DNA from: a virus
Length of the DNA stretch: 20,078 nt
Virus record (IMG/VR): IMGVR_UViG_3300047471_000854
Coordinates: 1 to 20,078 of that record
Reading direction: 5' to 3' (one strand)
A program made the position numbers and the translations under genes. A model generated the notes under the pieces. The model was not told the origin of the DNA. It saw only the letters and a program-made list of their open reading frames with translations, and made no database searches. This document shows, in pieces, positions 1 through 14,370 of this stretch (positions within the stretch are counted from its first letter, which is position 1; each line of letters begins with the position of its first letter).

Positions 1-393
1 TATCGGAAATATCCTCACGTCCACTCCATCTGCCACACCCACTCGCCCTACGCCGTCGGCTACGCCATCTCGGGTAGGGACCTCGAGGTCAGGTGCACGG
101 AGCATGCCGACTACTTCGGTCACGACATCCGGACGACCGGAAGGCCGGACATCGACCGGTGGGGAGACGAGCTGCTCTTGGATCCGGATGAGAAGGCGGT
201 GCTGCTCTACCAGCACGGTGTCCTGACCTTCGGCGACACTCCAAACAAGGCTGTGGAGCTGGCGGCCGCCTTGGAGAACATCGCTCAGAAGAACTACATC
301 GCCCACACCCTCAACGGTGGCAACTGTCGCCTGATGCACGGCGAAGATGTCAAGGCCTGGCACAAAAGGTACAACACGACCTATGGACAGTAA
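1..393 (+). CDS. araD: AraD-type L-ribulose-5-phosphate 4-epimerase (class II aldolase family), 5' end missing
   Basis: The gene enters from the left edge in frame 1 and ends at TAA 391-393, leaving 130 visible residues of a family usually about 230 long. Visible residue 12-14 HTH and H72 in YQHGVLTFG fit the three zinc-binding histidines of class II aldolases/AraD. The stretch EHADYFG (about 34-40) and the terminal YGQ match AraD more specifically than fuculose aldolase, because AraD proteins carry HADYF and end in YYGQ. Known AraD enzymes interconvert L-ribulose-5-phosphate and D-xylulose-5-phosphate in the cytoplasm by a retro-aldol route. In this cassette it could supply or rearrange pentose phosphates for the isomerase, transaldolase and kinases that follow; that role is inferred. 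An aldolase or a different epimerase specificity remains possible. The N-terminal half is outside the window, so intactness is unknown. Confidence 0.82.
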   Translation, partial: YRKYPHVHSICHTHSPYAVGYAISGRDLEVRCTEHADYFGHDIRTTGRPDIDRWGDELLLDPDEKAVLLYQHGVLTFGDTPNKAVELAAALENIAQKNYIAHTLNGGNCRLMHGEDVKAWHKRYNTTYGQ

Positions 394-832
394 CACCATC
401 TACCTCGGTTCAGACCACAACGGGAACGCGGCCCGGGGCTACATCATGAAGCTCCTGCTGGCCGCTGGCTACTGCGTGTGCGACGTCAACGGGGACGACT
501 ACGAGCACAAGGTCGACTACACGGACATCGCCGAGAAGCTGTGCAAGGGCGTCATGAAGGACGACGCCACCGGCATCCTGATCTGCGGTACGGGGACGGG
601 CATGCTGATCGCCGCCAACCGGTTCCGTTCCATCCGCGCCGGCCTGGCGACGGATCGCGCCACGGCCGAGCTCATGCGCCAGCACAACGACTGCAATGTC
701 CTCGTCCTCGGCCAGTGGCGCACTCCCCTGGGTTCCATGGACGAGCTCATCCACACCTTCCTGGAGACCGCCTTCGAGGAAGGCCGTCACATCGCCAGGG
801 TGGAGAAGCTGGGGTACCTCGGTGACGAATAA
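383..832 (+). CDS. rpiB: RpiB/LacA-type sugar-phosphate isomerase
   Basis: This 149-residue protein has the usual RpiB length. It shows GSDHNG at residues 9-14 (family GSDHAG), LICGTGTGM at 66-74 with the catalytic cysteine C68, and HNDCNVLVLG at 101-110 (family HNDAN). Known members interconvert ribose-5-phosphate and ribulose-5-phosphate, or act on six-carbon sugar phosphates (allose- or galactose-6-phosphate). All key residues I can recognise are present, so it is probably active. The start chosen is ATG 383, which overlaps the epimerase stop by 11 bases. An in-frame ATG at 347 would add 12 residues unlike the family. No strong ribosome binding site is visible (AAAGG at 364-368 is distant), suggesting translational coupling. 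Placed between the epimerase and a kinase, it fits a pentose-phosphate step. The exact substrate cannot be read from sequence. Confidence 0.88.
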   Translation: MDSNTIYLGSDHNGNAARGYIMKLLLAAGYCVCDVNGDDYEHKVDYTDIAEKLCKGVMKDDATGILICGTGTGMLIAANRFRSIRAGLATDRATAELMRQHNDCNVLVLGQWRTPLGSMDELIHTFLETAFEEGRHIARVEKLGYLGDE

Positions 833-1742
833 GAACATCCTGGTGGTCGGGGACGTGATCCTCGACGAGTACACCCACGGAAAGAAGCTCGGTGTCTCCG
901 CTGAGACTCCGACCATCGTGGCCGACTACGAGCGAACGGAACGCTTCATCGGAGGTGCGGCCCTCGTCGTCAGACATCTCCTCAGGTTGGGTGCCAACGT
1001 CCGGCTCCTGACTGTCGGCGGCGACGAGAGCCTCTGGACCCGGCTGGTGGAGTCCACTGACGCCCCCACCCAGGACGAGCTCAACCGGCTCGACTACAGC
1101 CCGATCGTGGGCAAGGGATGGAAGTGGACGGAGAAGCGTCGGTTCTACGTCGACGACTACAAGATGGTGCAGTACGACGTTCGGAACGAGGCGTACTACT
1201 CCCAGGACCTGAAGCAGATCATGGCCGACGCCTATGTCCAGGCCCGCAACGTGGCTGACGCCGTGGTGGTCTGCGACAACCGCCACGGGACGATGGACTA
1301 CAGCCTGATGGACCTCATCCGGCAGAAGAAGGAACGCTACGGCGGGAAGCTCTTCGTGGACAGCCAGGTCTCCCAGAAGGAAAGCAACCACAGCAACTAC
1401 GCCGGCGCCGACATGATGTTCCTGAACCTCAAGGAGCTGGAGGCCGTGGTCGGTCGTCCCCGTGAGGTGGACTGCATCGTGGACCGTGTCCAACGGGCCA
1501 AGGAACGCCTCCACTCTGGGATCACCCTGAAGCTGGGACACCACGGTTCGGCCACCATGTTCAAGGACTCGGACGAGTACCACGAGTCGGAAGCATACGA
1601 TGTCCGGGCCGTGGACACCTGCGGGGCCGGGGACGCTTTCCTGGCCGCCTACGCCGTGTCGGAAGACCTCGACTTCGCCAACAGGTGGGCCGGCCTGAGC
1701 ACTACTTATAAGGGGACGATCGTTCCCAAGGAGCGCCCATGA
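822..1742 (+). CDS. PfkB-family sugar kinase, RfaE/HldA-like (first of two)
   Basis: This 306-residue ribokinase/PfkB-family protein resembles the kinase half of HldE, which phosphorylates D-glycero-D-manno-heptose-7-phosphate at C1. The N-terminus reads ILVVGDVILDEYTHG (6-20), followed by SAETP (26-30) and FIGGAALVVRHLLRLGA (42-58), the substrate-lid and GGA region of the family. DTCGAGD (265-271) forms the anion hole, with D271 the expected catalytic base. Where HldA proteins usually have SDYxKG, this one has CDNRHG (151-156), so it is the more divergent of the two kinases here and its substrate may differ. The GTG at 822 is chosen because the family N-terminus begins right after it and it overlaps the rpiB stop by 11 bases; the open frame extends upstream but that part is not family-like. 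It is coupled to the transaldolase by ATGA. Confidence 0.83.
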   Translation: MTNKNILVVGDVILDEYTHGKKLGVSAETPTIVADYERTERFIGGAALVVRHLLRLGANVRLLTVGGDESLWTRLVESTDAPTQDELNRLDYSPIVGKGWKWTEKRRFYVDDYKMVQYDVRNEAYYSQDLKQIMADAYVQARNVADAVVVCDNRHGTMDYSLMDLIRQKKERYGGKLFVDSQVSQKESNHSNYAGADMMFLNLKELEAVVGRPREVDCIVDRVQRAKERLHSGITLKLGHHGSATMFKDSDEYHESEAYDVRAVDTCGAGDAFLAAYAVSEDLDFANRWAGLSTTYKGTIVPKERP

Positions 1743-2452
1743 AAGAGCTCTTCCTCGACAGCGCGAACCTGGACGACATCTCCCTCGCGGTCCGGACGGA
1801 CGCCGTGGCCGGTGTGACGACCAACCCGTCACTCATGGCCAAGGAGACCAAGGTCGTCTCGCTGGAACCTCGCTTCTCGAAGGAGAAGTGGGACCACTAC
1901 GTCAAGCGACTGGACGACGTCTGCCAGGTCTTCCAGACTCGTGCGCGGGCCAGGAAGCACCTCTCGGTCGAGGTCATCACCCTCGATCCCCAGGAGATGT
2001 ACGATCAGGCGCACCGTCTTCGGGACGCCCTCGGGAAGTACGACAAGGTGCAGCTGCACGTCAAGATCCCGATCCTCTTCGAGTCACTCGAGGTGATCTC
2101 GAGACTTGGCGACGACGGGGTCAAGGTGAACGCCACCGCGGCCATGACAGCCCTTCAGGCGAAGCTGGCCCACGATGCCGGCGCTCCCATCGTCTCGTTC
2201 TTCTACAATCGGATGAAGGACGGGGATCTGGACGCCGACATGGAGCTGAGCCTGTTCGCCAACGATCTGAACCGAAACTGCCGTATCATCTGTGGCAGCA
2301 TCCGGAAGCCGGAAGACCTGCAGGACTGCTGGCTGAACGGGGCGGACATCGTGACGGCTTCCCTGTCGATCATCAAGCAGGTGATCGCCCATCCCCAGAC
2401 GGACAAGGCGGTCAAGCAATTCCAGGAGGACATCGACTCATGGCTGAAGTAA
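1739..2452 (+). CDS. Transaldolase / fructose-6-phosphate aldolase (TalC type)
   Basis: A 237-residue TIM-barrel transaldolase of the short class. The start reads LFLDSANLDDI (4-14), then GVTTNPSLMAK (25-35). The Schiff-base lysine is K109 in HVKIP (107-111). VKVNATAAMTALQAKLA (128-144) and VSFFYNRMKD (152-161) match conserved strands. Known members move a three-carbon dihydroxyacetone unit, for example between fructose-6-phosphate and erythrose-4-phosphate to give sedoheptulose-7-phosphate, or act as fructose-6-phosphate aldolases. It carries about 25 extra residues after GVTTNPSLMAK (about 36-60). Phage TalC genes are well known in cyanophages. Here the neighbours suggest a role in feeding a heptose or pentose pathway, which is inference. 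ATG 1739 overlaps the kinase stop (ATGA), and the 3' end overlaps the cupin gene. Confidence 0.88.
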   Translation: MKELFLDSANLDDISLAVRTDAVAGVTTNPSLMAKETKVVSLEPRFSKEKWDHYVKRLDDVCQVFQTRARARKHLSVEVITLDPQEMYDQAHRLRDALGKYDKVQLHVKIPILFESLEVISRLGDDGVKVNATAAMTALQAKLAHDAGAPIVSFFYNRMKDGDLDADMELSLFANDLNRNCRIICGSIRKPEDLQDCWLNGADIVTASLSIIKQVIAHPQTDKAVKQFQEDIDSWLK

Positions 2453-2811
2453 AGAAGAGGACCGCGTCCGACATCAAGCGCGTCGAGCGCGGGTGGGGCT
2501 ACGAGCTCTGGATCGAGAACGAGCCGGAGTACTGTGGCAAGCTCCTCCACATCTACAAGGACAAGTGCTGCAGCCTGCACTTCCACATGAACAAGATGGA
2601 GACGATGTACTTGCAGAAGGGACACGTCCGTCTGAAACTGATTGACCCGGAGAAGGGGGCGCCGTACTACGTCGACCTCCTGCCGGGTGAGTCCATCCTC
2701 ATCGACCGTGGTCTGGTCCACCAGATCGGCGCCATCGAGGAGTCGGACCTGTTCGAGTTCAGCACCATGCACGAAGAATCCGACTCATACCGAGTCGAAA
2801 AGGGGAACTGA
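2440..2811 (+). CDS. Small cupin protein (mannose-6-phosphate isomerase-like)
   Basis: This 123-residue single-domain cupin has the metal-binding set H47, H49, E54 in LHFHMNKMET (46-55) and H94 in GLVHQIG (91-97). GWGYELWIEN (18-27) resembles the WGxE start of the cupin half of mannose-1-phosphate guanylyltransferase/phosphomannose isomerase fusions. Such small cupins are commonly annotated as sugar-phosphate isomerases or epimerases, but many are untested. The start ATG 2440 has an AGGAGG at 2424-2429 with 10-base spacing and overlaps the transaldolase end by 13 bases. The open frame extends further upstream but that part is shadow sequence. It probably works on a sugar phosphate or nucleotide sugar of this cassette, since its neighbours all do. 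The substrate is unknown and a binding rather than catalytic role cannot be excluded. Confidence 0.75.
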   Translation: MAEVKKRTASDIKRVERGWGYELWIENEPEYCGKLLHIYKDKCCSLHFHMNKMETMYLQKGHVRLKLIDPEKGAPYYVDLLPGESILIDRGLVHQIGAIEESDLFEFSTMHEESDSYRVEKGN

Positions 2812-2812
2812 A

Positions 2813-3016
2813 ATGATCAAGAACAAGAAGGGCGAGAAGTGCTCTCCCAAGGATCTGGCGAAGGAAGTCCTGGTCGACGCTGTCCTCAACATCGGCTCCG
2901 TCGAGGGTGACGAGGGTCGGACCGAGAAGGAAGACGCGCTGATCGATGAGCAGTTCAAGAAGCTTAGCCAGCGCGTCCTCAAGGTCCTCGGCTACGTGAG
3001 CACCCAGGACGAGTAG
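2813..3016 (+). CDS. Hypothetical 67-residue protein
   Basis: I do not recognise this protein. It is 67 residues, highly charged (Lys/Glu/Asp-rich) with no signal peptide, membrane segment or cysteine pair, and looks mostly helical. The start ATG 2813 lies one base after the cupin stop, with AAGGGG just upstream at about 2801-2805. Its stop is immediately followed by the ATG of the glycosyltransferase. Frame continuity, third-position G/C bias and tight packing support real coding. Its place within the sugar cassette suggests a small partner or regulatory protein, but nothing in the sequence demonstrates that. Confidence 0.6.
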   Translation: MIKNKKGEKCSPKDLAKEVLVDAVLNIGSVEGDEGRTEKEDALIDEQFKKLSQRVLKVLGYVSTQDE

Positions 3017-3907
3017 ATGCGTATCAACCTCGTCGGAGCATTCATCAGGAACGCCCCGTTCGGGACGGAGATCGCCTTCAAGAAAGGCTTCGACCGTCTC
3101 GGCGAGCACCTGGTGAATGTCATCGACGACAGCCAGCCCGGTCAGGTCTGGGACTACGACGCCGACGCCACGGTGGTCTTCAAGACCATGCAGGGCTACT
3201 GGCATGACCTGGCCATCACCAAGGGCAAGAAGATCGTCTACCAGCCCGACGATCTTCGCTTCCCGCACATCAAGCAGATGATGCTGGACATGCGGAAGTA
3301 CTGTGACTTCGCCTTCACGTTCGACGAAGACGGCGCCCAGCTGGCCCGGGAGTACGGGTACAAGAAGGCGGAGCGTTTGCTCCTGACGGCAGATGACACG
3401 CTCTACCGCCCGCTCCCTCAGGTAGAGAAGGACATCGACGTCTGCTTCATTGGAAGCCTGACACCAGGTGCCAACCACAAGAGCCGGGTCAGGATGTGCC
3501 AGATCGTCAACAACATGCCGGGAGTGCACACCTTCTTCCACGGTGCGATCTACGACATCGAGCAACTGAACCTGATGTACAACCGCTCGAAGATCATCCT
3601 GAACCACGCGACCGACGTGGGGCAGGAGTTCGGTTTCGGCTACGGCTACCAGTGCCGACACTTCGAGGCGGGCATGACACGCTCCTGCGTCCTGTCGAAC
3701 GTCGTTTCAAACGAGACTGCTCGAGACGGGATCAAGAGCTTCTGGTTCTTCTCCAGCGAGCAGGACCTCCAGGACCAGGTCCGCTACCTGCTCGCCGACC
3801 CGGGCCACCGTCAGCAGCTGGCCCATGACCTCTACGGTGAGATGATGGCCGGCCACAAGCCGGAGCATCGCGCCCAGCAGATGGTCGATTTCATCAGGAG
3901 CCTGTGA
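3017..3907 (+). CDS. CgeB-like GT-B glycosyltransferase
   Basis: A 296-residue protein resembling the CgeB/spore-maturation-type glycosyltransferases (GT-B fold, Glyco_trans_1_2 group). Diagnostic stretches are DVCFIGSLTPGANHKSRV (141-158), the start of the C-terminal Rossmann domain, LNLMYNRSKIILN (184-196), and RHFEAGMTRSCVLSN (214-228), equivalent to the family's R-x-FE-x-x-A-x-G nucleotide-sugar binding segment. The first 130 residues form a less conserved acceptor-side domain. It should transfer a sugar from a nucleotide donor in the cytoplasm, and the donor could be the activated sugar made by this cassette, though acceptor and donor cannot be read from sequence. ATG 3017 directly follows the upstream stop, with AGGA at 3006-3009. 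The stop overlaps the next start (TGATG). Confidence 0.78.
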   Translation: MRINLVGAFIRNAPFGTEIAFKKGFDRLGEHLVNVIDDSQPGQVWDYDADATVVFKTMQGYWHDLAITKGKKIVYQPDDLRFPHIKQMMLDMRKYCDFAFTFDEDGAQLAREYGYKKAERLLLTADDTLYRPLPQVEKDIDVCFIGSLTPGANHKSRVRMCQIVNNMPGVHTFFHGAIYDIEQLNLMYNRSKIILNHATDVGQEFGFGYGYQCRHFEAGMTRSCVLSNVVSNETARDGIKSFWFFSSEQDLQDQVRYLLADPGHRQQLAHDLYGEMMAGHKPEHRAQQMVDFIRSL

Positions 3908-4509
3908 TGAAGCTCAATCTCGGATGCGGGTCGGACCTCCGGCCCGGATATCTCAATGTTGACTTCCTGGGTCCGAAGTGGATCCCGGCCGACGTCGGGT
4001 TCCTGCTGACGGACCTGTCCAAGCTGCCTTGGCCGTGGGAGGATGAGTCGGCCGAGGAGATCCTCATGTTGGACTTCCTCGAACACTTCCCGTACAAGCA
4101 GACGGAGAAGATCCTGCAGGAAGTCTGGCGAGTCCTGCTTCCCGGCGGGACGGTGGACATCCAGGTGCCGGACTTCCAACACTGCGCCTACGCCGTGCTG
4201 GACGACGACGGTCTGGACTACCAGTGCAACCGGTGTGGCAACTGGATGCTGGGGTCGGACGGCCATGGGTGCTCGAAGTGTGGCCAGAGCATCGCAGACA
4301 TCCAGGACGCCGCCATCCATAGGCTCTATGGGGGGCAGGACGTCCAAGGGAACTGGCACTACACCGCCTTCACCGAGGAGGTGTTGGGCAGGCTCCTGGA
4401 GAAGAACGGTTTCGCCAACATCCACGCCCTGGAACACGATCACCAGCAGGCGAACTGGAACATCAAGCTCAGAGCCACCAAGGCTGAACTGACCTGGGGT
4501 GACCAGTGA
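3907..4509 (+). CDS. SAM-dependent methyltransferase with inserted zinc ribbon
   Basis: A 200-residue class I methyltransferase (type 11-like). Motif I is LNLGCGSDLRPGYLNVD (3-19), with the acidic end of strand 2 at D19. MLDFLEHF (54-61) is the motif typical of LPS/capsule-associated methyltransferases, and VWRVLLPGGTVDIQVPDF (73-90) is the post-motif strand. Between this and the C-terminal TEEVLGRLLEKNGF comes CNRC (107-110) and CSKC (122-125), a compact zinc-ribbon insertion. It is expected to methylate a small molecule or glycan, and its position between two glycosyltransferases supports glycan modification. The ATG 3907 start gives the family N-terminus; a GTG at 3904 would add one residue. 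The stop overlaps the next gene as GTGA. The substrate is not known. Confidence 0.8.
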   Translation: MKLNLGCGSDLRPGYLNVDFLGPKWIPADVGFLLTDLSKLPWPWEDESAEEILMLDFLEHFPYKQTEKILQEVWRVLLPGGTVDIQVPDFQHCAYAVLDDDGLDYQCNRCGNWMLGSDGHGCSKCGQSIADIQDAAIHRLYGGQDVQGNWHYTAFTEEVLGRLLEKNGFANIHALEHDHQQANWNIKLRATKAELTWGDQ

Positions 4510-5531
4510 AGATCGCGTTCGTCGGGGTCAAGCGGGACTACCAGAAGCTCGGAGCTGGCTACGTCCGCATGTTCAACAAGTACCACCTGGAGATCCCGTT
4601 CTACTACGCGGAGCTTGGTGGGAACGACGTCACGGTCACGACCACGAACTACATCGGAGCCTCCGAGGAGTTTCTGTCTGGCGGCAAGTTCCGCAACGAC
4701 GCCGAGCTGAGCTACATGGGCGGCCACGACCATCACCGCTACGACGTGGTGGTACACTGGCGGAAGTTCTTTCCGGAGCTCTACCACAAGGACGCCATCA
4801 ATGTCCTCCACACCTGTGACCACACCTACCCAGAAGACTGGAAGCGGGACGTCCGGGCGGCTCTCTCTTCGGGGAAGCTGAAGAAGATCATCTGCTACAA
4901 GGGCTGGCACGCGAACCAGGTCGGTGTAGAGCTCGGTCTGGACCCTTCCCAGTGCCTGAACCTGATCGAAACGGAGCTAACCTTCGGCGTGGACCCGGAG
5001 ATCTACCATCCGTCGCCCTCCAAGGACCCCCACGCCATGCTCTGGAGCTCGGATCCGGGCCGCGGGCTGATCGGGGCGGTGCAATTGGCCGTGAAACTGC
5101 ACGCCAGGGACCGTCGGTTCAAGCTTCACGTCTGCCATCCGGACTACACCAACATGTCCCCGATCGTCCATCCGTCGATCGTCTGGCACGGAAACGTGAG
5201 CAACGGACCGGAACTCTGGAAGCTTTTCAATGAGACGGGCATCCTGCCGTACTCGTCGACCTTCCAAGAGCCGAGTTCACGAGCCGCTCGCCAGGCGCAG
5301 GCCGCCGGCAGCCTGGTCCTCTATCCACCGGGCATGGGCACCCCCTCAGAGTACGTCAGAGACATGGAGACGGGCGTCATGCGGCCTGTCAACCAATGGA
5401 TCGACAAGATAGTAGAGCTGGTCGGCACCCCGGCGGCTTCTCAGATCTGTAGGAACGCGGTGGACCAGGCGGTTTCGGAAAGCTGGCAGGTCCAAGCGGA
5501 AAGATTCAATCAAAGGTTCAAGGGAGAGTAG
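4506..5531 (+). CDS. GT-B glycosyltransferase (GT4-like)
   Basis: A 341-residue glycosyltransferase. The C-terminal donor-binding domain is the clear part: MLWSSDPGRGLIGAVQLAVK (178-197) matches the start of the GT4-type Rossmann domain, FKLHVCHPDY (205-214) the next strand, and TFQEPSSRAARQAQAAG (252-268) the E-x-x-x family motif that contacts the nucleotide sugar. The N-terminal half includes NVLHTCDHTYPEDWKRDV (99-116), an acceptor-domain stretch. It acts in the cytoplasm or at the inner membrane face; there is no signal peptide or transmembrane segment. The start is GTG 4506, overlapping the methyltransferase stop as GTGA. Together with the CgeB-like enzyme and the methyltransferase it forms a three-gene glycan-building block. 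Sugar and acceptor cannot be inferred from sequence. Confidence 0.77.
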   Translation: MKIAFVGVKRDYQKLGAGYVRMFNKYHLEIPFYYAELGGNDVTVTTTNYIGASEEFLSGGKFRNDAELSYMGGHDHHRYDVVVHWRKFFPELYHKDAINVLHTCDHTYPEDWKRDVRAALSSGKLKKIICYKGWHANQVGVELGLDPSQCLNLIETELTFGVDPEIYHPSPSKDPHAMLWSSDPGRGLIGAVQLAVKLHARDRRFKLHVCHPDYTNMSPIVHPSIVWHGNVSNGPELWKLFNETGILPYSSTFQEPSSRAARQAQAAGSLVLYPPGMGTPSEYVRDMETGVMRPVNQWIDKIVELVGTPAASQICRNAVDQAVSESWQVQAERFNQRFKGE

Positions 5532-5533
5532 GC

Positions 5534-6481
5534 ATGAGCATTGACATCAACGCTACCGATTTCGTAGCCAAGTTCGATTCCACCAAGGGAACGGTCGGAG
5601 TGGTTGGCTATGGGTACGTCGGGCGCGCCGTCGAGCAGTTCTTCCGCTGGAAGACGGACGAGAAGGGGAACCCCGCGCAGCTCTTCGACGTCAAGGTCTT
5701 CGACAAGGCCAAGCCCGAGATGGACACCCTGGCCGACGTGGTCGGGAAGGCGGAGATCATCTTCGTCTGCGTGCCCACCCCGATGCGCAAGGACGGCTCC
5801 TGCCACACGGGCATCGTGGAGTCGGTGCTCAAGGACATCTTGAACGAGGCAGAGCGTCAGGGAAGAAGCCCGAGCTCATTCGTCGTCGTCGTCAAGAGCA
5901 CGGTCTATCCGGGCTTCACCGACGAGATGCGGAAGAAGATGCCGATCAGGCTGCTCTTCTCTCCCGAGTTCCTCACGGAGAAGAACTCGGTGGCCGACTT
6001 CGAGAACACGAACCGCGTCCTCCTGGGTGGTGACACGGAGGACGGGCGCGTCGCCTTCAAGTTCTTCGAGGCTCGGCTCTACGAGAAGATCCTCATGAAC
6101 CAGGTCGTCATCGTCGGCTGCGAGTCGAAGGAAGCCGAGATGGCGAAGCTCTTCACCAACGGCATCCTGATGACGAAGGTCCTCTTCTGCAACGAGATGT
6201 ACCAGCTCTGCCAGAAGATGGGCATCGACTACGAGGAGGTCCGCACCCTGGCGACGCTGGACTTCCGGATCGGGGTGAGTCACACCTACGTCCCCGGTCA
6301 CGACGGTTCTCTGGGCGCGGGAGGCCACTGCTTCCCGAAGGACATCAACAACCTCCGGAACGTCTGCCGTCAGCAGGGCGTTCCCGAGAAGCTCTTCACC
6401 GCCGTGATCGACCGGAACAACGAGATCCGGGAGGACCACGACTGGGAGAAGATGAAGGATCGTGCGGTCATCGATGAATGA
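5534..6481 (+). CDS. Short UDP-glucose/GDP-mannose dehydrogenase family protein
   Basis: A 315-residue member of the UDP-glucose/GDP-mannose 6-dehydrogenase family, which oxidises a nucleotide hexose twice with NAD+ to a uronic acid. Visible motifs are the NAD-binding VGVVGYGYVGRAV (21-33), FVCVPTP (77-83), KSTVYPGFTD (121-130), SPEFLTE (143-149), AEMAKLFTN (201-209) with the catalytic lysine K205, and GAGGHCFPKD (261-270) with the catalytic cysteine C266. The protein then ends about 45 residues later, whereas family members are about 390-450 residues and have a C-terminal nucleotide-sugar-binding domain. The catalytic core therefore looks intact but that last domain is missing. ATG 5534 follows AGGGAGAG (5521-5528). 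The product could be a uronic acid donor for the adjacent glycosyltransferases, but the missing domain makes the substrate uncertain. Confidence 0.85.
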   Translation: MSIDINATDFVAKFDSTKGTVGVVGYGYVGRAVEQFFRWKTDEKGNPAQLFDVKVFDKAKPEMDTLADVVGKAEIIFVCVPTPMRKDGSCHTGIVESVLKDILNEAERQGRSPSSFVVVVKSTVYPGFTDEMRKKMPIRLLFSPEFLTEKNSVADFENTNRVLLGGDTEDGRVAFKFFEARLYEKILMNQVVIVGCESKEAEMAKLFTNGILMTKVLFCNEMYQLCQKMGIDYEEVRTLATLDFRIGVSHTYVPGHDGSLGAGGHCFPKDINNLRNVCRQQGVPEKLFTAVIDRNNEIREDHDWEKMKDRAVIDE

Positions 6482-6821
6482 TCCCTTTCACGACCGACGT
6501 CTGGTGATGGACCTCGACGGCACCCTCTGCGAACAGACCGCAGGGGGTGACGCCTATTGGACCGCCCAGCCGAAGAAGGACGTCATCGCCCGGGTCAACC
6601 GCTGCTATGACGAGGGGTGGCACGTCACCATTCACACGGCTCGTGGAATGCGAACCCACAACGGTGACGTGAAGAAGATCATCGAGCTCTACGAAGAAAA
6701 GACTCGGGACTGGCTGATCGACAACGGAGTGTGGTTCCACGAGCTGATCTTCGGGAAGCCCCCGGGTGACAGGTACGTCGACGACAGGAGTCTGAGGCCG
6801 GATGAATTCGCAGGCGTCTGA
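6474..6821 (+). CDS. Small HAD-family phosphatase
   Basis: A 115-residue minimal HAD hydrolase. Motif I is MDLDGTLCE, with the two catalytic aspartates near residues 12 and 14. Motif II is HTARGM, the motif III lysine is in FGKPPG, and motif IV is YVDDRS. There is no cap domain insertion. Similar short HADs occur in capsule and LPS clusters. Because it lies immediately before an HldC-type nucleotidyltransferase and an HldA-type kinase, it is a candidate for the C7-phosphatase step normally done by GmhB, which is a different and longer HAD (about 180 residues); this is inference. ATG 6474 overlaps the dehydrogenase stop by 8 bases. A GTG at 6462 is an alternative start adding four residues. 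The 3' end overlaps the next gene by 20 bases. Confidence 0.8.
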   Translation: MNDPFHDRRLVMDLDGTLCEQTAGGDAYWTAQPKKDVIARVNRCYDEGWHVTIHTARGMRTHNGDVKKIIELYEEKTRDWLIDNGVWFHELIFGKPPGDRYVDDRSLRPDEFAGV

Positions 6822-7293
6822 GACATACGAACGGTTCGCCCGGTCCATCAGGGAGGCCGGGCTGTACCTGTTTCCCGAGACGGGGTACGATCGAATCGTC
6901 TTCACCAACGGCTGCTTCGACCTCCTCCACCGTGGGCACCTCGACGTCCTGAACTACGCCAGGAGCGTGGCGGGAGCCCGGGGAACCGTGGTGGTAGGTC
7001 TGAACTCCGACGAGGGGATCAAGCGCCTGAAGGGACAGGACCGCCCGATCCAGGATGAGCACACCCGCGCCCTCCTGCTCATCCATCTCAGGATGGTCGA
7101 CCACGTCATTACGTTCGAGGAAGACACACCCTACGAGCTCATCAGAGCGCTGCAGCCGCATGTGATCGTCAAGGGTGGAGACTATGATCCCAAGACGGTG
7201 GTAGGCTCTGATCTCGCCCTGGTCGTGACCTGTCCGTTCCTGGACGGCAACTCGACCTCCAACATCGTGGAGAAGATCCGTGGAATCTCCTGA
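6802..7293 (+). CDS. hldC: Heptose-1-phosphate nucleotidyltransferase, RfaE2/HldC type
   Basis: A 163-residue cytidylyltransferase-fold protein matching the C-terminal half of HldE (or stand-alone HldC), which makes ADP-D-glycero-beta-D-manno-heptose from ATP and heptose-1-phosphate. FTNGCFDLLHRGHLDVL (34-50) contains the HxGH nucleotide-binding motif H43-H46. VVVGLNSDEGIKRLKG (63-78) with RPI (81-83), KGGDY (124-128) and the terminal STSNIVEKI (151-159) are all RfaE2 hallmarks. About 30 N-terminal residues precede the family domain. ATG 6802 lies inside the HAD gene with GGAG at 6787-6790. It is followed, with a 14-base overlap, by the kinase that would make its substrate. A related glycerol- or other sugar-phosphate nucleotidyltransferase activity is the main alternative, but KGGDY and the C-terminus favour the heptose enzyme. 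Confidence 0.86.
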   Translation: MNSQASETYERFARSIREAGLYLFPETGYDRIVFTNGCFDLLHRGHLDVLNYARSVAGARGTVVVGLNSDEGIKRLKGQDRPIQDEHTRALLLIHLRMVDHVITFEEDTPYELIRALQPHVIVKGGDYDPKTVVGSDLALVVTCPFLDGNSTSNIVEKIRGIS

Positions 7294-8206
7294 CAAGGTC
7301 TACAAGGTTCTCGTGGTCGGGGACATCATGCTCGACCAGTACACGTACGTCAAGACGGTGCGACAGGCCGAGGAGGCCAAGATCCCCGTCTGGGATGAGC
7401 TGCGCCAGGAGTACCGTCTCGGTGGGGCGGCCAACGTGGCTCACAACCTGAAGGCGCTCGGAGGAGCGGAAGTGGAAGTGCACCTCGCCGGCATCTGCGG
7501 ATCGTTGGTGGTCATCCATCGTCTGCGCGAGCTTGGGATCAAGCACGACCGGATGCTTGGGCATGAGACGATGGTCAAGCGTCGGTTCGTGGACGAGAAC
7601 AACAACTTCGTCATGCGTCTCGACAACTTCAGGAAGTTCGACCAGCCCGAGGTAGAGTTCTTCGAGATGATGATGGACTACTGGGAGCAGAGCTTCGACT
7701 GCGTCATCTTCTCCGACTACGACAAGGGGACCATCACCCCGAAGGTCATGGAGGTTTTCAGGAAGCTGGCGCCCATGACGATCGTGGACTCCAAGCGAGA
7801 GGACCTCCGGATCTTCGACGGGATCAACATCCTGAAGGTGAACGAGAAGGAGTACTCCTCCCAGGTCTCCAGCAAGCTCTACACCAACTTCACCGAGTTC
7901 TTCCAGTACGTGGTGGTCACCCGCGGTAGTGAGGGTGCGACCCTCATCATGTGTGACCACGCCAAGACGGTGAAGGCGGACCTGGCCCCTGGTAGGATCA
8001 TCGGGGATTCCTACGTGAATCACTCCGAGGAGTTCCCAGTGATTCAAGCGATGGTCAAGGATGTGACCGGCTGTGGGGACACCCACACGGCCGCCATGGC
8101 CTTCTGTGCGCTGAAGACTCGGGACGTCCGATCGGCAGTGAAGTTTGCGAACTCGGCAGCAGCGCAGGTGGTCCAAAAGTTTGGTACATCTGTCGCCTAC
8201 CTGTGA
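7280..8206 (+). CDS. hldA: Heptose-7-phosphate kinase, RfaE1/HldA type (second kinase)
   Basis: A 308-residue PfkB-family kinase closely resembling the HldE N-terminal domain. It has VLVVGDIMLDQYTY (10-23), YRLGGAANVAHNLKALG (45-61), SDYDKG (145-150), VDSKREDL (169-176), VVVTRGSEGATL (211-222) and DVTGCGDTHTAAMAF (261-275). Expected activity is ATP-dependent phosphorylation of heptose-7-phosphate to the 1,7-bisphosphate, feeding the HAD phosphatase and the nucleotidyltransferase just upstream. The usual GAGD is GCGD here; the catalytic aspartate D267 remains. It matches HldA better than the kinase at 822-1742. GTG 7280 starts within the preceding gene, with GGAG at 7269-7272. It is the last gene of the sugar cassette before a promoter-like site and a change of gene content. 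Confidence 0.86.
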   Translation: MESPDKVYKVLVVGDIMLDQYTYVKTVRQAEEAKIPVWDELRQEYRLGGAANVAHNLKALGGAEVEVHLAGICGSLVVIHRLRELGIKHDRMLGHETMVKRRFVDENNNFVMRLDNFRKFDQPEVEFFEMMMDYWEQSFDCVIFSDYDKGTITPKVMEVFRKLAPMTIVDSKREDLRIFDGINILKVNEKEYSSQVSSKLYTNFTEFFQYVVVTRGSEGATLIMCDHAKTVKADLAPGRIIGDSYVNHSEEFPVIQAMVKDVTGCGDTHTAAMAFCALKTRDVRSAVKFANSAAAQVVQKFGTSVAYL

Positions 8207-8232: not shown

Positions 8233-8418
8233 ATGGCGCTGAAACTTGGAAAGACGGTCCTGGTGGAGATCGTGGCGATCGTCCAGCGGGGACTGACGCA
8301 GGGGATCGACATCTCCCAGCAGCTTCGGGACATCGAGCTCGACGATCCGTCGGACGGCACGATCGAGCTGACCCAGGCGTACGTGGATCGTAGGGACTCC
8401 GACCCGGACCTCTACTGA
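8233..8418 (+). CDS. Hypothetical 61-residue protein
   Basis: I do not recognise this protein. It is 61 residues, with a hydrophobic stretch VLVEIVAIVQ near residues 9-18 that is too short and charged for a membrane segment, and an acidic second half ending DSDPDLY. It looks like a small helical protein. ATG 8233 has a very strong AAGGAGG site, and the stop overlaps the next start as TGATG. It is the first gene after the TGATATAAT box and is co-translated with the FmdB-type gene. Confidence 0.7.
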   Translation: MALKLGKTVLVEIVAIVQRGLTQGIDISQQLRDIELDDPSDGTIELTQAYVDRRDSDPDLY

Positions 8419-8946: not shown

Positions 8947-9672
8947 ATGGCCCAGTATTTCACGAAGCAGACGGACGAGTACCTCGCGAAGTTCATCAAT
9001 TCGACGGTGGTCGAGGAGAAGCACGAGGTCTTCGACGTACACATCCGCCCGGCTTTCGAGAAGCTGGTGGAGAACCTGATCTACGTGTACGGCTTCTTCA
9101 GCATCGACGACGTCGAGACCTTGAAGAAGGACTGCCTGGCGAACCTGTACGAGATGATCCCGAAGTTCGATCCGAACAAGGGGACCAAGGGATTCTCGTA
9201 CTTCAACGTCATCGCGAAGAACTGGTTCATCCAGAAGACCCGTGAGAAGAACAAGCGCAACCGGCTCGAGTCGGACCTGTACTATGATCTCGACCACGAG
9301 ATGGTCCGCTCCGACCCCAACTTCACTCTCTCTCCCCACGAGGACAAGGTCGAGGAACGTGAGTTCTGGGTCGCCTTCTACAAGGAGTTGGAGTCCTGGA
9401 GGAAGAAGCTTACGAAGAAGACCGAGACCCAGGTTCTCGAAGCAGTCATCTTCCTCATGCGAAACTCAGATCTAGTCACTATTTACAACAAGAAGGCCGT
9501 CTACCTGTACCTCCGGGAGATGACCGGGCTGAACACCAAGCAGGTCGTGGTGAACCTGAAGAAGATCAAGGGCCTGTTCAACGAGTGGAAGGACAGGTAC
9601 TTGTCTACCGGAGAAAGTGAAGAGTGTCAAAGCAATCCGAAGATCTCATCGACGAGGCGCACGGCAACCTAG
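8947..9672 (+). CDS. Phage sigma-like factor, T4 gp55-type (putative late sigma)
   Basis: A 241-residue protein with a sigma region-2-like segment at about 58-105: LKKDCLANLYEMIPKFDP, then KGTKGFSYFNVIAKNWFIQK (78-97), then a basic run REKNKRNR. This matches region 2.1-2.4 of small sigma factors and lines up with the corresponding part of T4 gp55, which directs RNA polymerase to late TATAAATA promoters. A second helical segment, YLYLREMTGLNTKQVVVNLK (186-205), could be a region-4-like helix-turn-helix. It probably binds host core polymerase and recognises promoters of the baseplate genes that follow. ATG 8947 has GAAAGG at 8935-8940. The last 16 codons overlap the next gene; the tail after residue 220 is low in conserved features. 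The sigma assignment is good; 'late' is inferred from context. Confidence 0.75.
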   Translation: MAQYFTKQTDEYLAKFINSTVVEEKHEVFDVHIRPAFEKLVENLIYVYGFFSIDDVETLKKDCLANLYEMIPKFDPNKGTKGFSYFNVIAKNWFIQKTREKNKRNRLESDLYYDLDHEMVRSDPNFTLSPHEDKVEEREFWVAFYKELESWRKKLTKKTETQVLEAVIFLMRNSDLVTIYNKKAVYLYLREMTGLNTKQVVVNLKKIKGLFNEWKDRYLSTGESEECQSNPKISSTRRTAT

Positions 9673-12501: not shown

Positions 12502-14370
12502 ATGCCGGCACCGAAGCAGAACAAGACCGCCTTCACCAAGGACCAGACTGTCAAGTACCTGAACAAGGACTTCCAGGGGTTCAAGCGCGACCTCATGCAG
12601 TTCTCGCAGGCGCACCACTCGGGCGTCTTCCAGGACTACAACGAGTCATCGCCCGGTATGGCGATCCTGGAACTCCAGGCGTTCATCGGGGACATCCTCT
12701 CGCTCTACCAGGACATGCAGTTCGAGGAAGTGAAGCAGGAGTCGGCCCAGCAGATCGAGAACGTCGTGTCGTTCGCCAAGTCCCTCGGCTACCGTCCGCA
12801 GGGAAAGCGCGCCGCTCGAGGCAAGGAGACGTTCTTCGTCGAGGTCCCGGCCATCACCGTCAACGGCCAGTCCATCCCGGATGACTCGTTCGCCCCGATC
12901 CTCCGAGCCGGTGCCCAGGTCCAGGGACCGAGCAACACCATCTTCGAGACGCTGGACGATGTGGTCTTCAGCGCCTCCAGCCCGGACTACCCCCGTCTCG
13001 TTACCGGCTCCCAGTTCGACTCGGCGACCGGACTCCCGACCCACTACGCCATCCGCAAGGACATGGAGATCACGGCCGGTCAGACGATCGTCGAGACCTT
13101 CAAGATCACCAACTTCGAGCAGTTCCTCCAGATCAAGCTCAGCAACCCGGACGTGATCGAGGTCCTCTCTGTCTATGACTCCGAGGGGAACCCCTGGACC
13201 GAGGTGGACTACCTGGCCCAGGAAGCGGTGTTCGACGCCGACGTGAACTCGGACCTGACCGACAACACGGACGTGCCCTACCTGCTCAAGCTGGTTACCG
13301 TCCCCCGTCGGTACGTCACCGACCGAGACCCGACGGACAGCACCACCTCCCTGATCTTCGGCTCGGGTGACGGCGTCAACTTCGACGACGAGCTCATCCC
13401 GAACCTGGCCGACTACGCCCTACCGCTGGCCGGTCGTCGGACCTTCGCCTCCTTCGCGATCGACCCGCAGAACTTCCTGAAGACCCAGACTCTGGGACTC
13501 AGCCCGTACAACACGACGCTCACCGTCTCCTATAGAGTGGGTGGCGGACCGCAGACGAACGTGATCGCCGGCAGCATCAAGACGGTCACGAACGCCGAGC
13601 TGGACTTCTCGACCACCTCGTTGGACGCCACCAAGAAGGGCGCCGTGGTCCAGTCGCTGGAGTGCATCAACGTCCAGAAGACGGACGGTGGATCTCCGGA
13701 GGAGACCATCGGAGAGGTCAAGGCGAACTCGGCCGCCTTCTTCGCGGCGCAGAACCGCGTCGTCACCAGGGAAGACTATATCGCCCGCATCCTGACCCTG
13801 CCGGCCAAGTTCGGCAAGCCGGACAAGGTGTACGTCCGCCGGGACAGCATCAACCCGCTCGCCATCGACGTTCACGTCCTGGCGCGTGACGCGGACAACC
13901 ACCTGCAGCTGGCGTCCGCCAACCTGAAGGCGAACATCGCTACCTACCTGACTCCGTATCGGATGATCACGGACGGGATCAACATCCTGGACGCCAAGAT
14001 CATCAACCTGCGGGTGAAGTTCGGCGTGACCGTCTCCCCGAAGGTGAACCGGACCGAGGTGCTGGCCAAGTGCCTCGCGGTGGTGCAGGACTACTTCGAC
14101 ATCGACTCGCAGCAGATCGGTCACCCCATCGTGGTCTCCGAGCTGTCGGCCAACCTGCAGGCGGTCCAGGGAGTCATCTCGGTGTACGAGCTGACCTTCA
14201 CCAACGTGATCGGAAACGCTCCGCTGCCGGGCAGTCAGATCACCCTGCCCTACTCCACCACGAGGTTCGACGTCTCTCACCAGCGTCAGAACGAGATCAT
14301 CTACTGCCCGCAGGACTCGATCTTCGAGGTGAAGTACCCGATGGTGGACATCCAGGGAGTGTCGCAGTAA
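12502..14370 (+). CDS. gp6-like baseplate wedge protein (baseplate J family)
   Basis: A 622-residue protein matching the T4 gp6 / P2 gpJ baseplate wedge family. The N-terminal part is diagnostic: YLNKDFQGFKRDLMQFSQ (19-36), FQDYNESSPGMAILELQAFI (43-62) and GDILSLYQDMQFEE (63-76), as in T4-type marine phages. Residues about 400-500 include AAFFAAQNRVVTREDYIAR and the following strand, typical of the baseplate-J core. The C-terminus (about 490-622) has LRVKFGVTVSPKVNR and SELSANLQAVQGVISVYELT. It forms the wedge ring that joins around the hub and drives the sheath trigger. ATG 12502 has GGAGGG upstream. The length is close to T4 gp6 (660). The stop overlaps the next ATG (TAATG). Confidence 0.86.
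   Translation: MPAPKQNKTAFTKDQTVKYLNKDFQGFKRDLMQFSQAHHSGVFQDYNESSPGMAILELQAFIGDILSLYQDMQFEEVKQESAQQIENVVSFAKSLGYRPQGKRAARGKETFFVEVPAITVNGQSIPDDSFAPILRAGAQVQGPSNTIFETLDDVVFSASSPDYPRLVTGSQFDSATGLPTHYAIRKDMEITAGQTIVETFKITNFEQFLQIKLSNPDVIEVLSVYDSEGNPWTEVDYLAQEAVFDADVNSDLTDNTDVPYLLKLVTVPRRYVTDRDPTDSTTSLIFGSGDGVNFDDELIPNLADYALPLAGRRTFASFAIDPQNFLKTQTLGLSPYNTTLTVSYRVGGGPQTNVIAGSIKTVTNAELDFSTTSLDATKKGAVVQSLECINVQKTDGGSPEETIGEVKANSAAFFAAQNRVVTREDYIARILTLPAKFGKPDKVYVRRDSINPLAIDVHVLARDADNHLQLASANLKANIATYLTPYRMITDGINILDAKIINLRVKFGVTVSPKVNRTEVLAKCLAVVQDYFDIDSQQIGHPIVVSELSANLQAVQGVISVYELTFTNVIGNAPLPGSQITLPYSTTRFDVSHQRQNEIIYCPQDSIFEVKYPMVDIQGVSQ

Follow-up and report, generated by a model that had tools for sequence, protein, structure and literature searches.

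The DNA considered here is a complete IMG/VR virus record (IMGVR_UViG_3300047471_000854; 20,078 bases, hereafter the window), in which a cassette of sugar and glycan genes adjoins T4-like baseplate genes of a tailed phage. Positions 1-8206 are filled by 13 open reading frames (ORFs), all on the + strand and overlapping by a few bases or abutting, and the genes directly after the cassette encode a late sigma factor and gp25-like and gp6-like baseplate wedge proteins. No near DNA match to known phages was found. The cassette probably serves to make an activated heptose inside the infected cell, with a small cupin protein probably taking the step of the isomerase GmhA. The features are listed below, where NT stands for the nucleotidyltransferase, and core and optional block for two modules of the cassette.

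1..393, + strand: AraD/class II aldolase-type gene, 3' part (optional block); PF00596, 64.6 bits.
383..832, + strand: RpiB-type sugar-phosphate isomerase (optional block); NF004051, 139.8 bits, over the cut-off of 135; PF02502.
822..1742, + strand: kinase 1, PfkB family, HldA-like (optional block); TIGR02198, 125.6 bits, cut-off 345.
1739..2452, + strand: TalC/FSA-family transaldolase (optional block); PF00923; phrog_440.
2440..2811, + strand: cupin, proposed sedoheptulose-7-phosphate isomerase replacing GmhA (core); PF07385, genetic linkage and predicted fold.
2813..3016, + strand: small ORF of 67 amino acids; no Pfam match.
3017..3907, + strand: glycosyltransferase (GT); PF13524, 47.2 bits, cut-off 25.
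3904..4509, + strand: S-adenosylmethionine-dependent methyltransferase; PF08241, 28.3 bits, over the cut-off of 21.2.
4506..5531, + strand: conserved protein, GT by context only; homologues at the same position in contigs G004, G010, G015 and G023.
5534..6481, + strand: nucleotide-sugar (UDP-glucose type) dehydrogenase; TIGR03026, 171.3 bits, cut-off 189.8; phrog_9148.
6474..6821, + strand: small HAD phosphatase, proposed sugar-1,omega-bisphosphate phosphatase; TIGR01689, 66.9 bits, cut-off 162.
6802..7293, + strand: HldC-like NT (core); TIGR02199, 154.6 bits, cut-off 181.5.
7280..8206, + strand: kinase 2, HldA-like (core); TIGR02198, 167.7 bits, cut-off 345.
8233..8418, + strand: small conserved ORF ending the cassette slot; same position in relatives.
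8947..9672, + strand: late sigma factor, gp55-like, downstream landmark of the slot; phrog_234, E 1.1e-5.
12502..14370, + strand: baseplate wedge, gp6-like, phage-lineage marker; phrog_219, E 2.7e-23.

An earlier note on this DNA had described these enzymes as one run next to T4-like baseplate genes, and both the enzymes, in a single + strand series of overlapping or abutting ORFs, and the adjoining gp25-like and gp6-like wedge genes after the late sigma gene were found where it had placed them. Its doubt about a chimera could be put aside. Metabolic genes of such kinds are common in bacteria, and an assembly error might have joined bacterial to phage sequence; against this, contigs G001 and G003 match the window at 99.995% and 99.98% identity over all 20,078 bases, G002 does so at 99.989% over 18,233 bases, and G004 crosses the junction between cassette and baseplate genes at about 85% identity. 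The junction is thus common to three contigs at no less than 99.98% and to a more divergent fourth, all four carrying baseplate genes across it, and the gene order recurs in distant relatives, so that a chimera has practically no chance of being the explanation and was rejected.

The cassette extends well beyond the window. In contig G002 it starts about 11.2 kb before the window and comprises 23 genes over about 19.4 kb, preceded by a gene whose homologues are annotated as PD-(D/E)XK nucleases. Ten genes precede the AraD-type gene, in order a GT4, a NAD epimerase, a GT4-GT9-GT2 fusion, a GT2, a GT4, a DUF2334/deacetylase, a methyltransferase, a methyltransferase-like protein with no Pfam match, a GT and a second GT9 (GT9b). 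The count of two glycosyltransferases in the earlier note was therefore too low for the whole cassette, and one of the two, at 4506-5531, is a GT by context only, Pfam, NCBIfam and PHROGs having given no match for it at E 0.001. The GT9 domain (PF01075) was matched in two of the upstream proteins at 49.4 and 51.8 bits (cut-off 22), and the nearest solved protein to GT9b was 1psw, ADP-heptose lipopolysaccharide (LPS) heptosyltransferase II (E 5.1e-8), suggesting that the GT9 enzymes would take ADP-heptose as donor.

Kinase 2 and the NT point to the same sugar. The best model for kinase 2 was HldA and that for the NT was HldC; the only solved match to kinase 2 at E 1e-4 was HldA 4e84 (E 9.3e-19), and the nearest solved protein to the NT was 5x9q, titled a putative cytidylyltransferase (E 5.7e-34). 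Given these models, the two GT9 units and the presence of HldD in two relatives, a phage-encoded route to an activated heptose, as the earlier note had supposed, is the likeliest reading. Gene content and order, co-occurrence, fusions, family matches and the predicted fold are direct observations; functional assignments here rest on genomic context and families only, from which we infer the reactions of the pathway, its substrate, the nucleotide (ADP) and the fate of the glycan on virion or host. TalC, where present, together with the host would make sedoheptulose-7-phosphate, which the cupin would convert to D-glycero-D-manno-heptose-7-phosphate (the GmhA step); kinase 2 would then phosphorylate C1 of heptose-7-phosphate, the HAD protein would take off the 7-phosphate, and the HldC-like NT would produce ADP-heptose. 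The upstream GT9 enzymes could move the heptose onto a glycan made inside the infected cell, to which the remaining transferases might add further sugars and the methyltransferases methyl groups. Some relatives have an HldD that would epimerize the donor; at its place the window species has AraD-RpiB-kinase 1-TalC. We put the probability of this account, in which the phage supplies its own heptose donor for a glycan assembled within the infected cell, at about two in three. Compared with the known ADP-heptose pathway (GmhA, HldA/HldE, GmhB, HldC, HldD), the likeness lies in the HldA-like kinase, the HldC-like NT, the HAD phosphatase, GT9 and, in two relatives, HldD, whereas the differences are a cupin in place of the SIS-type GmhA, a HAD family other than GmhB, and the location on a phage.

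The gene order in related phages is nuclease...GT9b-slot-cupin-GT-methyltransferase-unknown-dehydrogenase-(HAD)-NT-kinase 2-late sigma, and the slot before the cupin varies in content between records. AraD-RpiB-kinase 1-TalC occupies it in five records, namely the window species, L136 (G023), L128/L279, L195 and L167, the last with its left end cut. In G004, whose gp6 is identical to that of the window over the 613 residues present in this contig, the slot is empty and the cupin, HAD, NT and kinase 2 are kept, and in G010 and L123 (G097) it contains an epimerase that exceeds the curated HldD cut-off of 274.6 bits, at 301 and 313.9 bits, respectively. HldD over cut-off beside the cupin was thus found in two of ten phage records, compared with 2/14 control genomes. 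The 11 distinct phage records with GT9b in the resolved tables all carry cupin, NT and kinase 2 (11/11), while the minimal-slot records L127, L130 and L132 have a GT4 and lack GT9, NT, kinase 2, cupin and HAD at the threshold used; one exception, L139, has a kinase and a cupin with no NT found. GT9 and the NT-kinase 2-cupin set thus share their gains and losses in the window lineage, and AraD-RpiB-kinase 1-TalC is a separate, optional and removable block. One coupled pathway through all cassette genes, as the earlier note had it, was rejected, since the close relative G004 lacks the block, and G010 and other relatives have an epimerase at its position.

The optional block might either provide precursors or form a second branch for a heptose-like sugar, the two being about equally open. 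Within it, the AraD-type gene loses its 5' end at the window edge; a 210-residue form is present in G002, and for the longer form in G001 the top model was NF005123, L-ribulose-5-phosphate 4-epimerase, at 149 bits against a cut-off of 251. The nearest solved proteins to TalC were transaldolases (3r8r, E 2.3e-25), with fructose-6-phosphate aldolases from 2.2e-16, and the kinase 1 profile was nearest to HldA 4e84 (E 1.5e-25; next 6.7e-12). In one phage locus, L303:5315-6172, RpiB is fused to an HldC-like NT, and this fusion lies beside kinase 1, AraD, cupin, TalC and HAD, with a second NT-kinase 2-cupin set adjoining. A complete second activation branch, making another NDP-sugar and sharing the HAD and NT, would be compatible with the heptose route as a refinement of it. 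The separate NT, cupin and HAD of the block genes in L303, the nearness of kinase 1 to HldA and the constant place of the block before the cupin in five window-lineage records all speak for such a branch. Nevertheless, the window cassette has only one NT and one HAD, simple precursor supply explains as much, and two cellular heptose clusters read by eye (L448, L450) have TalC-like genes adjoining GmhA or GmhB, which favors supply, so that a complete second branch is a serious possibility that falls somewhat short of even odds.

The earlier note had taken the HAD protein for the phosphatase of the ADP-heptose route; a HAD phosphatase it is, but its model matches at E 0.001 were to TIGR01689 only and to no GmhB (HAD-IIIA) model, and it falls instead in the family of 9iqw, titled phage HY126 D-arabinose 1,5-diphosphate phosphatase (profile E 9.1e-21). 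The HAD motifs were invariant in 16 aligned members of the family, and the structure model was of middling confidence (pLDDT 82.2). Its homologues are annotated as phosphoheptose isomerase in many T4-like phage records, P-SSM2 included, and likewise in phrog_1238, and other records label them hypothetical or polynucleotide kinase; the HAD phosphatase family was also seen under the phosphoheptose isomerase label at L271:9734-10078 and in T4-like homologues. Unlike this family, the phosphoheptose isomerase of Caulobacter phage Cr30 is a true GmhA relative. Since the motifs and the 9iqw match fit a phosphatase that takes the distal phosphate off a sugar bisphosphate, the isomerase label on the HAD family is probably wrong, and we propose that the protein acts in this way, as the heptose route needs.

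The same family raises the question of a pentose. In RB69-type phages it also serves pentoses, and the HAD protein does not therefore decide the sugar; the kinase-HAD-NT set might activate a pentose such as D-arabinose, with a product that may modify DNA. RpiB and AraD are pentose-phosphate families, and the L303 fusion of RpiB to an NT beside kinase 1 would also suit this. The RB69-type DNA arabinosylation locus shares with the cassette an isomerase-phosphatase-nucleotidyltransferase logic and the HAD family, but in three proteins from each of two such loci the isomerase was KdsD-like and the nucleotidyltransferase of another, unrelated family; among the profiles for kinase 1, kinase 2, NT, cupin and HAD, only HAD matched the RB69-type proteins tested, and no family match to the KdsD-like isomerase or to the ORF052-type nucleotidyltransferase was found among the window cassette ORFs. 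GT9 and HldD genes, moreover, accompany the core. A thymidylate-synthase homologue was absent from the incomplete records G001-G003 and present in one of ten, likewise incomplete, records (G015), and DNA hypermodification is weak as a default reading. Activation of a pentose is accordingly improbable, roughly the kind of alternative that one would expect to lose seven times in eight.

The link between the cupin and the heptose genes was assessed in phages from two sides. In the NT-anchored scan, which kept the best 80 of at least 570 loci and was counted over 78 after two loci of the window species were left out, the cupin was present in 67/78 loci, the kinase in 73/78 and both in 63/78, with a median distance of 1,237 bases between the ORF starts of NT and cupin (n=67). 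As a base rate, 51 distant late-sigma control loci had the cupin in 3/51 and the NT in 0/51. In the cupin-anchored scan, where 76 of 80 loci were used (the four belonging to the window species and G004 left out), the NT accompanied the cupin in 49/76 and the NT or the kinase in 55/76. No SIS-type GmhA (PF13580) was found over cut-off in 123 distinct phage records (0/23, 0/50 and 0/50), many of them fragments and G001-G003 among them, the sole match below cut-off reaching 15.3 bits among 50 of the 80 NT loci. Our own GmhA profile gave one match in the viral loci scanned, in L160, which has no NT. Furthermore, an archaeal GmhA query matched six annotated phage records and the window cupin query 35, with an overlap of 0; in Cr30, one of the six, GmhA lies beside a gene annotated as heptose kinase. 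The upstream sequence, to which the earlier note had pointed, contains other sugar genes (two GT9 units, the NAD epimerase and GTs), but no SIS-type GmhA over cut-off was found in the incomplete contigs G001-G003. Its statement that GmhA was not in view thus holds for the SIS-type enzyme, but not in that the cupin is probably the functional equivalent.

What the cupin might catalyze is suggested by its relatives. Its AlphaFold model is a confident cupin fold (pLDDT 95.9), and in 24 aligned cupins H45, H47, E52 and H92, which we take to be the usual cupin metal ligands, are invariant, as are, among others, K32, K50, E104, D113 and R116 (numbered within the stretch 2446-2808). When ten cupin members were scanned against Pfam, the window cupin matched PF07385 (D-lyxose isomerase) at 24.2 bits, over the cut-off of 20.8, with only residues 26-58 aligned, so that the match shows relationship, not function. 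PF07385 was also over cut-off in L377 (27.8 bits) and L391 (27.6 bits), and the type II phosphomannose isomerase domain (cut-off 23.6) in L385 (33.1) and L377 (23.9), with L411 at 23.6; the remaining members of the ten were below cut-off for both isomerase models, and general cupin models, oxalate decarboxylase included, matched cupin members as well. D-lyxose isomerase 7nzo had the highest identity (25%) in the Z-ranked list of a fold comparison, and 7nzo/7nzp lay at 22-25% overall. The likeness to these two isomerase groups thus comprises the cupin fold and, for some members, scores over the Pfam cut-off, and the difference lies in the weak similarity and short alignment. D-lyxose isomerases and type II phosphomannose isomerases make manno-configured aldoses, and D-lyxose, D-mannose and D-glycero-D-manno-heptose have a common configuration at C2-C4; the GmhA reaction is therefore the chain-extended form of the D-lyxose/phosphomannose isomerase reaction. 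We infer that the cupin is probably a sedoheptulose-7-phosphate isomerase taking the GmhA step. The fold as proof of this function was dropped, as Z values tie and oxalate decarboxylase ranked first.

Cellular genomes extend the picture. Among the 80 cupin loci kept in the cellular scan, the NT was present in 20, the kinase in 21 and either in 23, and ten loci, titled Woesearchaeota, Nanoarchaeota, Nanoarchaeia, "archaeon" and Nomurabacteria (L377), have the order cupin-epimerase-kinase-NT. In four of these ten that were read, a GmhB-type phosphatase lies between kinase and NT (L364, L372) or is fused to the NT (L377), and none was seen in L376. The archaeal locus L364 exceeds the curated cut-offs for HldA (378.7; 345), HldC (186.7; 181.5) and HldD (277.7; 274.6), its GmhB-type phosphatase falls just under (162.1 vs 178), and its cupin is fused to HldD, the one such fusion found in a cellular locus. 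GmhA alone of the five-step heptose set is absent from this operon, which contains the cupin instead. Five further cellular loci carry HldA-cupin fusions (L367, L371, L375, L385, L387). Among the 23 genomes in which the cupin lies close to NT or kinase, the GmhA model TIGR00441 was never over cut-off (0/23), and seven of the ten genomes with the cupin-epimerase-kinase-NT order, which may be incomplete, had no GmhA-model match of 50 bits. Of the seven among the 23 genomes that do have a GmhA-model match of 50 bits or more, three (G096, G078 and G075) have a SIS gene that sits with a GmhB-type gene, by profile, and a GHMP-like kinase, with a TalC-like gene adjacent to the SIS gene cluster in G096 and G078; read by eye, these are GDP-heptose clusters, which would fit one isomerase per pathway. 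Elsewhere the cupin keeps different company. The neighbors of acidobacterial and similar cupins were clustered for 46 loci, and in two read by eye (L411:8001-8366 and L409:7998-8369) the cupin follows apparent RapZ and phosphotransferase system (PTS) EIIA, HPr and EI genes and lacks heptose genes in its vicinity. The RapZ/PTS neighborhood hints at a sugar-phosphate role of the cupin, and the role in these two loci may show its ancestral activity.

Several observations weigh against a heptose pathway opened by the cupin. Kinase 2 and the NT both fall under the curated cut-offs of their best models, and the best SDR (short-chain dehydrogenase/reductase) or upstream epimerase of the window species, whose contigs are incomplete, reached 135 bits for HldD against the cut-off of 274.6. 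The HAD profile matched in only 24/78 NT-anchored loci and 7/11 GT9b records, so that other phosphatases must act elsewhere. Neither NT nor kinase was in the stretch covered in 21/76 cupin-anchored phage loci and in 57/80 cellular cupin loci, the latter mostly acidobacterial and of lower score, and L140 and L143, from the wider late-sigma set, have the cupin without either. Conversely, 11/80 NT loci have no cupin, two of them 20 kb long (L314 and L333). Matches below cut-off to the GmhA model occur in 17 of the 23 cellular genomes, seven at 50 bits or more, and the SIS clusters weaken "cupin instead of GmhA" to "cupin in this operon". Foldseek ranked oxalate decarboxylase first for the cupin, and in the second fold comparison many cupins tie, at Z 14.0-15.8 over 50 rows.

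One alternative is that the pathway leads to ADP-heptose but a host GmhA makes heptose-7-phosphate, which the host may indeed supply, and the cupin is a later tailoring enzyme whose substrate could be the nucleotide sugar. In its favor, other pathways have cupins that act on nucleotide sugars; the top entry by Z (15.8) among the 50 rows was CapF, an enzyme of capsule synthesis that includes a cupin part; and 11/80 NT loci have no cupin. A tailoring enzyme would, however, sit poorly with the five fusions to HldA, the enzyme acting right after the GmhA step, with the matches over cut-off to the D-lyxose and phosphomannose isomerase models, with GmhA over cut-off in none of the 123 phage records, and with its lack at 50 bits in seven of the ten possibly incomplete cellular genomes; it is an unlikely reading, if a less unlikely one than the pentose. 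The cupin as isomerase is preferred. It is a little less probable than the heptose-donor pathway set out above, and still better supported than not, that the cupin is a second, unrelated sedoheptulose-7-phosphate isomerase displacing GmhA in many tailed phages, DPANN archaea and candidate-phyla bacteria, that phages so carry complete heptose-donor pathways, and that the labels "phosphoheptose isomerase" on the HAD protein and "cysteine dioxygenase" on the cupin in T4-like records name wrong functions.

Several further features of the cassette and its surroundings were observed. The GT4-GT9-GT2 fusion is a single protein of 1,041 residues (L051:7411-10533), whose counterpart in G016 keeps the GT4 part and has no GT9 profile match. 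GT9b (L051:15188-16090) has G-[IL]-G-N-A near the N terminus in 5/5 aligned sequences reaching that far, presumably the site at which heptosyltransferases have their catalytic Asp. The dehydrogenase at 5534-6481 matches PF00984 and PF03721, both over cut-off. A simple hydropathy scan found no membrane-like segment in 31 proteins, all 23 cassette proteins included, so that the cassette contains no flippase or polymerase of its own, and the glycan may be exported by host machinery. Upstream of the cassette, G002 carries 35 tRNA genes in one cluster (L055:11539-19675). Flavobacterium phage immuto (L115) and Microcystis phage Mel-JY01 (L116), the cultured relatives by gp6, have a PD-(D/E)XK nuclease gene starting a GT cluster, as in the window lineage, and within the 31-kb stretches examined no GT9, NT, kinase 2, cupin or HAD-type genes follow that nuclease.

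The nearest described counterparts are the cyanophage "LPS" clusters (P-SSM2, S-SSM7, S-CAM1 and others), which likewise hold NT, PfkB kinase, small HAD and cupin close together with epimerases nearby, whereas the window adds TalC, RpiB, AraD, a second kinase, the dehydrogenase and clear GT9 genes. In the cyanophage stretches scanned, NT, kinase and HAD were present in 7/7 and the cupin in 6/7, lying just outside the stretch in the seventh (S-SM2), and GT9 profile matches were weak. The co-occurrence of cyanophage "LPS" genes was noted in 2010, together with the question whether they are functional or filler (PMC3037559). A 2021 study named PfkB kinases, nucleotidyltransferases, cupin sugar isomerases and HAD phosphatases in cyanophage clusters, proposed to change the host surface or make a secondary metabolite, with the cupin termed a sugar isomerase in general terms only (PMC7824862). 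The available portions of these two papers give no heptose route and assign no GmhA step to the cupin, and the words "cupin" and "heptose" are both absent from the main text of a study reporting a phosphomannose isomerase from another cyanophage (PMC9602691). No paper linking the cupin to GmhA or heptose was found in the literature searched, most subscription papers lying outside it.

The interest of these results lies mainly in the isomerase and in the mislabeled phage genes. If the reading is true, the missing first step of heptose activation would be filled in phages and in several cellular groups in which no GmhA was found, the label on many T4-like phage records would be corrected, and a protein of about 120 residues would have an activity testable in one assay. 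Some phages would then deliver a full route to a heptose donor along with heptosyltransferase-like enzymes of their own, and whether the cyanophage "LPS" genes are functional or filler, as asked in PMC3037559, would become directly testable.

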